Of a DNA stretch of 64,000 bases, positions 37,064-39,794 are shown piece after piece. A program made the position numbers and the translations under genes. The DNA lies in contig CANFHC010000001.1 in the NCBI GenBank assembly GCA_947446575.1, positions 1 to 64,000 of the forward strand, in the 5' to 3' direction. Source of the DNA: Bacteriovoracaceae bacterium (GTDB lineage: Bacteria > Bdellovibrionota > Bacteriovoracia > Bacteriovoracales > Bacteriovoracaceae). The notes beneath the pieces are model-generated. The model had not been told where the DNA came from. It saw only the letters and a list, made by a program, of their open reading frames with translations, and did no database searches. Numbering within the stretch: position 1 is the first letter of the stretch; each line of letters opens with the position of its first letter.

Positions 37064-37516
37064 TTAAAGATCAACAATACATTCAGCAATTTCAGTATTT
37101 GCTTCAGTATTCACTACTACGGAATAAGAAACGACAACGTATTGCTTCTTATCTCCTGTACTCACAGTTCTTATAATACTTTCTACATAGCTCATATCAT
37201 CTGATCCAATTAGATTGCGATCTGTGAGAACGAATTCTCTTTTGCAATTACGATCTTCTTTATTGCAATAAGATGAACGATATAGAGAATCTTCTTCAAT
37301 TAATTTTGTTAAATCAGAGTTCCCGACAACAACTCGTATTTGAATATCTTTTTTAGGATAATTTACTTCGGCTACAGATACAGTACATGCTGTACCTTGA
37401 TCGTTTACGCCTGAATAATAACCAATTGGAAGATATGAAGTAAATTTATCAACAGCGTTTGAAGCATAAGAGCTTACGCTTGCAAATGTTAAGGCTAAAA
37501 CCAAAAGAAATTTCAT
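37064..37516 (-). CDS. secreted orphan protein with four to five cysteines
   Basis: 150 residues: signal peptide KFLLVLALTFASVSSYA, then a beta-rich mature domain with CTVSVAE, SSYCNKEDRNCKREF and a final CIVDL. The cysteine spacing suggests disulfides. AGGGGGTTCC precedes ATG. No family recognised. Confidence 0.75.
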   Translation of the reverse strand: MKFLLVLALTFASVSSYASNAVDKFTSYLPIGYYSGVNDQGTACTVSVAEVNYPKKDIQIRVVVGNSDLTKLIEEDSLYRSSYCNKEDRNCKREFVLTDRNLIGSDDMSYVESIIRTVSTGDKKQYVVVSYSVVVNTEANTEIAECIVDL

Positions 37517-37586: not shown

Positions 37587-37985
37587 TTACAGGCTCAAAA
37601 ACTTAAGGTCTTCCTTACTCGAAATCACCAGAATCTTTTTAACATTGTGATTTTTTAAGACTTCACGAACCTCTTGCTCTAATGATGGATCTGTAATGAG
37701 AATGATAGACTCAAGATTGCCTTTAATTGGGATTACTACGTCTTTTAAAAAAGACTTTGAAAGCTCTCTTAATTCTAGTAACCCTTGATTAATTACCTTT
37801 GAAGGGCGATACCCTTCCCCCATTAACGTTTTCACTAATTTTAACTTTTCGACGTCCACATCGCTATAAACTCTCTCGCCCTTTTCATCGCGAAGAGGTC
37901 TCGGAAATGAATAACGACGCTCCCACATACGAAGGAGGTACTTACTAATTCCAGTTTCTTTTTCAACAACATTGATCGGGAACAT
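37587..37985 (-). CDS. truncated LitR/CarH-type MerR regulator
   Basis: 132 residues. The first 75 match the MerR-type helix-turn-helix of the LitR/CarH family: INVVEKETGISKYLLRMWERRYSFPRP, then RVYSDVDVEKLKLVKTLMGEGYRPSKV. Full-length LitR/CarH proteins are about 300 residues and carry an adenosylcobalamin-binding light-sensing domain. Here only about 57 residues follow the HTH and no ExxDxH cobalamin motif is seen, so light sensing is probably lost. The adjacent remnants of an FAD oxidoreductase and a cyclopropane synthase are usual members of LitR loci. Confidence 0.8.
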   Translation of the reverse strand: MFPINVVEKETGISKYLLRMWERRYSFPRPLRDEKGERVYSDVDVEKLKLVKTLMGEGYRPSKVINQGLLELRELSKSFLKDVVIPIKGNLESIILITDPSLEQEVREVLKNHNVKKILVISSKEDLKFLSL

Positions 37986-38009
37986 TTTTTACCACCATTT
38001 TAAAAGTAA

Positions 38010-38226
38010 TTATGCTTTTACATTTTTCTCAAATAACACTTGAACGACATCGATTTTTGTATTAAAAATTCCATTCCAGCGCTTAAGTGTTTCTGCATAA
38101 TCCAAACCAAATTCTAAATAATCAACAATGGAGAAATTGTTTTTTTCAGCGTGGTATTGAATCATTATTTAAGAGCCAAGCAGCACTTAGACCAGAAATA
38201 CCAGAGCCAATTATTGCAATTTTCAT
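38010..38226 (-). pseudogene. fused stump: FAD oxidoreductase start + cyclopropane synthase end
   Basis: ATG at 38226, with AGAGGATA upstream, opens MKIAIIGSGISGLSAAWLLNN, the FAD-binding GxGxxG start of an amine-oxidase-like protein, then hits a stop. In the next frame, from about 38150, YHAEKNNFSIVDYLEFG, LDYAETLKRWNGIF and DVVQVLFEKNVKA match the C-terminal region of cyclopropane-fatty-acyl-phospholipid synthase. In intact LitR clusters these two genes are neighbours with DUF1365 between them. A deletion of the oxidoreductase body, the middle gene and the synthase N-terminus explains the fusion. Neither protein can be functional. Confidence 0.8.
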
Positions 38227-38348
38227 TCTTTATCCTCTATAATTTTATATCACTCGATAACAACAGAACGACTAAGACAGTGCCTTGACGTTTTCAGCGT
38301 CTAAGGGCCGTCCATCACCAAAAGGAAAAAATTCTCTTATAATAAATT

Positions 38349-39794
38349 ATGGATTTAGAATACTTAGTTATAGGCGCAGGCATGGCAGGCTTGAGCTTTA
38401 CAGCATTATTAGAAAAAAAATTACTGGGGACCAATTCCAAAATTGCGCTCCTTGAGGCCCACTCAATAGTTGGTGGCTGTGCTTCTTATTTTGAGCGCGA
38501 TGGATTTCTTTTTGATGCTGGTGCTACAACACTCTCCGGTCTCTCCCCCAACCAGCCACTAGATAGACTCATTAAAGAACTCGATTTAAAATTAAATTTA
38601 ATTAAAATTGATCCAGGAATTACTTTTGTTTTTCCCCAAAAAAAAGTTCAGCGATTTTCGGACAATCAAAAATGGATAGAAGAATTAAATATTAAATTTC
38701 CCAATATATCACATAACAAAATCTGGGAAATCATAGCACAAATCAATCTGTTGGGATGGAACCTTTCTAGCGATGTCAAATCTCTTCCCTTGAGATCATT
38801 TAAGGATTCTCTATCTCTAATGCATTTCAAAAATATAAAACATATTAAAAAAATTCCCTTGCTGTTTAGAAGTGTTGAATCTCATTTGCGACTGCAAGAC
38901 ATATTGGATAGTGAATACCAGGCACTCTTTAATGAGTTACTTTTTATCACTTCTCAAAATGATATTCATGAAACCCCAATGCTCGTTGGAGCTATGGGAT
39001 TGTCTTACCCCTCTGATACTTATTATGCCATTGGCGGAATGAAAGCCTTTTGTGATGCTTTAAAAGAAAAATGTTCTCGTATTTTATTACGCCATAAAGT
39101 TTTAGAAATAAAAAAAATTACTGGCGGATTTTTGGTAAAAACCAATAAGGGCGATTTTACGACAAAAAAAATAATCTCAACTCTTCCTAGTTGGAATAAC
39201 GAATTGTTAATGAATAAAAGTTCCGTTGAAAAAAAGAAAAATGAAATAGCTGCATGCTGGAGTGCTTTTACTCTTTATTTCACTATTCCCAAAAATAACA
39301 ACAGAGAAGGATTGTATTTCCAAGTTCACTGCCCTCCTATCCCCATTTGCAAGACAAAATCTTTTTTTGTTTCTTTATCCCATCCAAATGACCCACGAAG
39401 TTCAAACGAAAGACAAACTGTAACAATTTCATGTCACACAAAACCAGATTTATTTTTAAATTTAAAGGCTGACGAATACAAACATAAAAAACAAGAGATA
39501 GAAAATTTCATTTTAGATTATTTTTGCAAAAATTTTGAATTAGATATTAATCAACTTGCGAATATCCACTCGGGAAGTCCAAAAACTTTTATCCGCTACA
39601 CAAATCGATTAAATGGCTTGGTTGGAGGAATCCCACACTCTATTCTTAGAAATCCTTTCTCATATGTCATTGAACATTCACTAGGAAAAGATTTTTATCA
39701 AATCGGTGATACTCAATTTCCAGGACAAGGAATTGCAGCCGTGGTTCTTGGAGCACAAAACTTAATCGAGCATCTTGTTTCGGAATATCCTTAA
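38349..39794 (+). CDS. carotenoid desaturase/isomerase-like FAD oxidoreductase
   Basis: 481 residues. LVIGAGMAGLSFTALLEKK with the later KIALLEAH is the FAD-binding Rossmann motif, VGGCASYFERDGFLFDAGATTLSG is the phytoene desaturase-type second signature, and GDTQFPGQGIAAVVLGA near the C-terminus is the matching terminal motif. CrtI, CrtISO and related enzymes dehydrogenate or isomerise carotenoids. No other crt genes are in the window. TATAAT (38338-38343) ends five bases before ATG, with no ribosome site, as in a leaderless gene. Confidence 0.85.
   Translation: MDLEYLVIGAGMAGLSFTALLEKKLLGTNSKIALLEAHSIVGGCASYFERDGFLFDAGATTLSGLSPNQPLDRLIKELDLKLNLIKIDPGITFVFPQKKVQRFSDNQKWIEELNIKFPNISHNKIWEIIAQINLLGWNLSSDVKSLPLRSFKDSLSLMHFKNIKHIKKIPLLFRSVESHLRLQDILDSEYQALFNELLFITSQNDIHETPMLVGAMGLSYPSDTYYAIGGMKAFCDALKEKCSRILLRHKVLEIKKITGGFLVKTNKGDFTTKKIISTLPSWNNELLMNKSSVEKKKNEIAACWSAFTLYFTIPKNNNREGLYFQVHCPPIPICKTKSFFVSLSHPNDPRSSNERQTVTISCHTKPDLFLNLKADEYKHKKQEIENFILDYFCKNFELDINQLANIHSGSPKTFIRYTNRLNGLVGGIPHSILRNPFSYVIEHSLGKDFYQIGDTQFPGQGIAAVVLGAQNLIEHLVSEYP

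Follow-up and report, generated by a model that had tools for sequence, protein, structure and literature searches.

The window analysed here is a 64,000-nucleotide stretch of DNA from a member of the Bacteriovoracaceae, a family that includes predatory bacteria. On its minus strand, a gene for a 132-residue MerR-type regulator (37587-37985) is preceded by a stump of about 217 bp (38010-38226) that joins pieces of two other genes, and the next gene downstream (37064-37516) encodes a small protein of 150 residues with a signal-peptide-like start. Divergently from the stump, on the plus strand, runs an intact gene for a 481-residue, CrtD-like FAD-dependent oxidoreductase (38349-39794). The 122 bp between this gene and the stump contain a predicted operator (38276-38312) between two predicted -10 boxes. 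An earlier note on this DNA had described the locus as a decayed light-response (LitR-type) module. Comparison with 13 other genomes of the genus retains much of that description and changes its central point, the state of the regulator.

The regulator consists of a helix-turn-helix (HTH) region, residues 1 to about 75, and a variable tail of 45-55 residues. Pfam assigns MerR_1 (E = 3.9e-13), the best of 14 NCBIfam models is CarH (E = 6.2e-17, residues 3-71 only), and a profile search of the PDB ranks the CarH entries 3whp and 5c8d first (E about 6e-16, residues 2-70), followed by 2jml at 2.6e-10 and then by 6.8e-8. In an AlphaFold model the HTH superposes on CarH 5c8f with Z 12.5 over 73 residues (rmsd 2.1), compared with Z 10.2 for CueR. 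The protein has, in other words, a MerR HTH closest to those of CarH and LitR. Confidence in the model is high only for the HTH, as pLDDT is below 50 at residues 81-91 and block means are 57-76 beyond, and structure-comparison rows hardly extend past residue 81. No B12-binding family (PF02310 or PF02607) was found in this regulator or in either of the two congener copies examined, and the protein ends at residue 132, so that the C-terminal B12-binding domains and ExH-x2-G motif of LitR/CarH class I are missing. The tail was also considered as a leftover LitR cobalamin domain, a candidate rejected after profile comparison with the C-terminus of a longer paralogue gave a probability of 0.9%. Pfam, NCBIfam and PDB profiles thus uphold the claim of a LitR/CarH-type HTH without a cobalamin domain. 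In the phrase "light-blind repressor", light-blind is plausible for a protein with no sensor domain, and the repressor sign is something that we only infer.

Sequence comparison shows the stump to be a genuine scar of a deletion. In its 5' part (38161-38226, minus strand), the FAD oxidoreductase gene of a lost operon survives as its first 22 codons, reading MKIAIIGSGISGLSAAWLLNND, after which the frame is lost; the 3' part (38010-38165, minus strand) is the end of a cyclopropane synthase-like (CFA) gene that retains the original C-terminus but lies in a different frame from the FAD start. The 51-residue frame 38165-38010 matches positions 200-248 of the Pfam family CMAS (E = 3e-5). The FAD piece aligns to the FAD starts of operons in genomes G003, G006, G009, and G010 with scores of 90-98, where the best shuffle reaches 41. 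For the CFA piece, alignment to the corresponding tails in G003, G006, and G009 gives 104-122, highest for G009, and G010 gives 89 (best shuffle 55). The CFA tail of the scar has also lost about 32 residues in a second deletion, which keeps the frame and falls ahead of the true C-terminus.

Intact counterparts show what has been lost. The gene order in G003 and G006 is FAD (418 residues), DUF1365 (about 252), CFA (about 395) and then the short regulator, with families assigned by Pfam on G003; G010 has the same order up to a contig end that cuts the FAD gene. Gene sets of light and stress regulons elsewhere may share this FAD-DUF1365-CFA order. In G010 the CrtD-like gene begins upstream of the FAD gene and points away from it, so that the window has the layout of G010 minus three enzymes. 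Nowhere in the window are the three genes intact, only the scar being left, and DUF1365 has no match in the whole of the window's own genome (G000). The alignments therefore confirm the description of the stump as the first residues of a FAD oxidoreductase fused out of frame to a cyclopropane synthase end, and the description of these genes as partners in a LitR-type cluster also holds.

Related arrangements occur elsewhere in the genus. A paralogous FAD-DUF1365-CFA operon, here called B, is found with further small genes, and not beside the short regulator, in G002, G007, G008, and G011 (L112:2348-5566, L113:2336-5545, L114:3180-6407, L116:3016-6237); its proteins are 42-50% identical to those of the A-type operon described above, and the scar aligns more weakly to the B operons of G007 and G011 (62-91). 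G012 encodes an in-frame FAD::CFA fusion of 335 residues with DUF1365 gone (L070:7791-8798). Because pN of the fusion fragments (0.098 and 0.108) is near that of the G012 regulator (0.077) and the G012 branch in an IleS tree is long, the fusion may be either a second, independent and recent deletion or an assembly error. In G004, the divergent promoter and the short regulator are separated by a short-chain dehydrogenase-like gene (L072:3-1151), which sits as though it had replaced the lost enzymes under that promoter.

The CrtD-like gene has orthologues in 12 of 13 congeners. It matches TIGR02733 at E = 2.9e-60, in keeping with its description as an intact, divergent, carotenoid-desaturase-like gene, but at 204.4 bits it falls short of the 549.7-bit cut-off for CrtD. 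A search for phytoene synthase gave no match in the window's own genome (95.5% complete), nor in 13 of the 14 genus genomes including it, the exception being G012. Given the low score and the missing synthase, the carotenoid role is unsupported and the gene is probably not carotenogenic. On the other side of the locus, the small protein has no family match in Pfam or NCBIfam. A relative of it follows the regulator in seven of the nine genomes where regulator and flank are complete, the window included (not in G001 or G010). An intrinsic terminator is predicted after it, at 37038-37016, and none between it and the regulator; the small protein possibly belongs to the regulator's transcription unit.

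The earlier note had suggested looking upstream of 38349 for a LitR operator. The sequence there contains a predicted operator (38276-38312) of four half-sites, GAC-11-GAC-12-GTC-11-GTC, that is, half-site repeats with the 11-bp spacing of LitR/CarH operators at a candidate target promoter. The only match to TWGACR-N5-TWGACR in the window's own genome is at the long paralogue, and a backwards control also has one; since this did not suffice for the window site, a four-half-site test was tried, in which arrays with 4/4 or 3/4 half-sites and a middle spacing of 10-12 were scored. The operator is the sole array of 3/4 or better in the 64-kb window (20 block shuffles averaged 1.4 at 3/4 and 0.0 at 4/4) and the sole 4/4 site in its 3.39-Mb genome. 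Over 14 genus genomes the 4/4 pattern has five sites, four at a regulator promoter and the fifth inside a G004 gene, versus three in the backwards control. Arrays occur at nine of eleven regulator or operon promoters (4/4 in G000, G001, G003, and G012; 3/4 in G006, G007, G009, G010, and G011). At the regulator promoters of G004 and G008 no array of 3/4 or better was found, G004 keeping only the proximal half-site pair. Arrays were likewise found at none of nine promoters of CrtD-like genes located elsewhere, none of ten long-MerR promoters (a set that excludes G003, G007, and G008) and none of four B-operon promoters. Among 474 distinct upstream regions, 13 carry an array: ten at the regulator module, including one antisense frame over the same site, two at the epimerase gene that diverges from the long paralogue, and one at L075. 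G009 has an A-type operon without the short regulator (L115:3091-6292) that retains a 3/4 operator and the 25-bp spacing described below; either the long paralogue uses this operator or the regulator was lost recently.

The predicted -10 box of the scar-regulator unit, TATAAA (38244-38249, minus strand), is preceded by TGA, making it an extended -10, and lies 25 bp from the proximal half-site. The predicted box of the CrtD-like gene, TATAAT (38338-38343, plus strand), is 24 bp away from the opposite end of the operator. On the regulator side the distance is exactly 25 bp in eight of nine array promoters, a count that omits G008 and G004, at four or more matches of six; the ninth, G010, matches at three of six. 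G004, picked up by pattern, also has the 25-bp spacing and is included among the ten promoters considered below. The sequence between half-site and -10 is little conserved, and TG stands ahead of the -10 in eight of the ten. On the side of the CrtD-like gene, 24 bp separate the array from the -10 in G000 (TATAAT), G010 (TAAAAT), and G007 (TAATAT). With the same array 24-25 bp from a -10 on both sides, one predicted operator seems to serve two divergent promoters. Searching the 14 genomes for a half-site, 25 bp, and TATAAW gave 11 sites, seven of them at regulator units (G000, G001, G003, G004, G006, G007, and G012); three of the remaining four overlap long open frames and one, in G003, does not. 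As the backwards control gave eight sites against these 11, prediction of a whole regulon was dropped.

We regard the regulator as probably a repressor or autorepressor, by analogy with known family members, which repress, and because the site abuts the -35 position. The fixed distance in the lack of a good -35 would also fit activation, the regulator sitting upstream of an extended -10 and recruiting RNA polymerase to both promoters. No match to TTGACA of four in six was seen at 16-18 bp in the nine promoters or at spacers of 13-18 in the ten, which together with the 25- and 24-bp distances speaks for such a role. However, an extended -10 can function without a -35, a weak -35-like hexamer does occur at a 20-bp spacer in four of the ten promoters, and CarH, LitR, and PmlR2 are described as repressors (PMC9758184, PMC8156234). 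An activator is a rather unlikely reading.

About equally doubtful is the proposal that the operator mainly serves the long LitR-family paralogue, with the short protein competing or modulating. The paralogue lies on contig C2, where its neighbours are a photolyase and a DUF1731 epimerase. The HTHs of the long and short proteins align over 84 columns, the long paralogue's own promoter carries TAGACA-N5-TAGACG in six of ten cases, and TAGACR lies near the start of the CrtD-like gene in G002, G009, and G013, which have no short regulator. Against this, the four-half-site array is at the short-regulator and operon promoters and absent from the long one, and eight of nine array promoters, all except that of G009, come from genomes with the short regulator. 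More generally, TAGACR occurs at eight of nine promoters of CrtD-like genes located elsewhere (0 of 1000 shuffles as good, with kinship ignored; 40 of 347 upstream regions of all kinds hold one); for the B operon as a target the figures are two of four promoters and 46 of 1000 shuffles as good. Since promoters of both the long paralogue and the CrtD-like genes carry TAGAC half-sites, there is, as read from these motifs, a LitR-type network in the genus. Across the long paralogue at L074:8364-9317 and its orthologues, the D/E-x-H-x-x-G motif is missing from 12 of 13 congener rows (there is no row for G005); G010 retains it, as does the out-group G023. B12 light sensing may therefore be lost from most of the predicted network. 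BLUF photoreceptors were found in none of the 14 genus genomes. By analogy with class II LitR, which acts through an HTH-contacting LOV partner, a partner protein could bring light input to the short regulator.

Searches of 57 whole genomes, the window's own included, found full-length partners of the regulator in eight of 13 congeners, or nine with a contig-cut copy in G004. Identity to the window copy is 57-72%, with G010 at 49%, and an alignment of nine regulators keeps a single length and end. The best match in the 43 genomes outside the genus is only 35% identical and falls inside a 334-residue frame, the long MerR of G023. A genome-collection scan with two peptide patterns found at least eight loci, all from Bacteriovoracaceae or Bacteriovorax. 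In the IleS tree (midpoint root; 5 of 11 inner branches strongly supported; second G002 piece left out; G004, G012, and G013 rows partial), the short regulator is present on both sides of the genus, in G000, G003, G006, G008, G011, and G012 and in G001, G004, G007, and G010, and absent from G002, G005, G009, and G013. For this reason the short regulator would most simply be ancestral in the genus. Comparisons of the window copy with nine others give pN of 0.21-0.37 and pS of 0.65-0.92; omega is computable for two pairs only, 0.18 and 0.09, rough values given that most synonymous sites are saturated. Constraint on the tail is weaker, with pN of 0.29-0.51 in the eight pairs having it. From end to end the regulator aligns with a separate family of short MerR proteins that accompanies the operon in G003, G006, and G010, an outcome that the earlier note had named as counting against its reading; "decayed" fits the enzymes only, and the regulator is complete for its family. 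The pN/pS constraint and the kept operator argue against an inert gene, which the conserved frame, operator, -10 boxes and spacing also make unlikely. That the regulator is a recently truncated LitR, its cobalamin domain lost with the enzymes and the rest now inert or a by-product, is very improbable: the enzymes are indeed deleted and there is no B12 domain, but the same length and end recur in eight congeners with a whole copy, three of them beside the operon, frame and HTH are constrained, and operator and promoter geometry are kept.

Our preferred explanation, which we hold to be probable from comparative sequence evidence, is that the locus is a remnant LitR-type module in which a sensor-less regulator still controls the CrtD-like gene and itself through the predicted operator after deletion of the enzymes. 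The ancestral layout would have had one operator between two divergent units, the CrtD-like gene and FAD-DUF1365-CFA-regulator, with a regulator that combined a LitR/CarH HTH with no cobalamin sensor as far back as the genus. Sequence comparison shows that in this genome a deletion of about 3 kb took all but a small part of FAD, together with DUF1365 and most of CFA, with a small second deletion besides, leaving operator, both promoters, regulator, and CrtD-like gene intact. Two dimers of the regulator presumably occupy the four half-sites and would thereby set how strongly the two divergent promoters, one of them the regulator's own, are used. B12 light sensing by the short regulator itself would be impossible; signals might reach it through dosage, a partner protein binding the HTH, or competition with the long paralogue, whose promoter carries half-sites related to those of the operator. 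The explanation is weakened by G008, which lacks the array, by G004, which has the proximal pair only, and by the nine array-free promoters of CrtD-like genes located elsewhere.

A broader reading is a genus-wide turn from a B12 light switch to a light-blind one, with a short, sensor-less LitR on a symmetric operator of four CarH-type half-sites, flanked by two divergent extended -10 promoters, the cobalt-ligating histidine motif of the long paralogue lost in 12 of 13, and regulator and operator outliving the operon in several lineages; we advance it tentatively, as possible at somewhat less than even chances. What had been labelled decayed would be better called an intact switch with deleted enzymes. 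A family of light-response repressors may thus shed its sensor yet remain in service, and the readable operator leads to testable predictions. Within one Bacteriovoracaceae genus there is a natural series from intact operon through partial scars to regulator alone, with regulators outliving their neighbours. The mostly open-access literature consulted yielded no description of a short sensor-less LitR in Bacteriovoracaceae or of the predicted operator.

Among known systems, the window regulator shares its HTH with class I LitR/CarH, the AdoB12 light-sensing repressors exemplified by Thermus thermophilus CarH and Myxococcus xanthus CarH and CarA, but unlike them it has neither the four-helix bundle nor the Rossmann cobalamin domain. 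CarH operators are described as half-sites at 11-bp spacing with a TnnACA repeat (PMC9304148, PMC8156234), and most half-sites in the window read TnnAC(A/G); the CarH repeats are all in tandem, whereas in the window two direct repeats face two. HiNmlR (PDB 5d8c, 5e01), according to its entry titles a short sensor-less MerR protein on promoter DNA, resembles the window regulator in that respect but fits its model less well than CarH does (Z 7.9, 26% identity over 82 residues), and its site is palindromic by title. The lost operon resembles light and stress regulons with a cyclopropane-synthase-like methyltransferase, the difference being that all three enzymes are gone from the window: VC1122, a CFA of Vibrio cholerae, is reported as blue-light induced (PMC5241685), the furan fatty acid genes ufaM, ufaD, and ufaO are placed in light or oxidative-stress regulon sets (PMC7380195), and the Pseudomonas LitR regulon is described as including UfaM and a photolyase (PMC9758184). 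Class II LitR proteins (Pseudomonas PplR and PmlR2) combine, like the window regulator, a LitR HTH with the absence of B12 sensing. They keep a B12-binding_2-type domain, which the window regulator lacks, and work with a LOV partner described as touching the HTH, on published Pseudomonas sites of the form TGTACA-N12-TGTACA (PMC9758184). LitR classes IV and V, given in the same source as having no B12 domain (PMC9758184), may be the nearest published kind.
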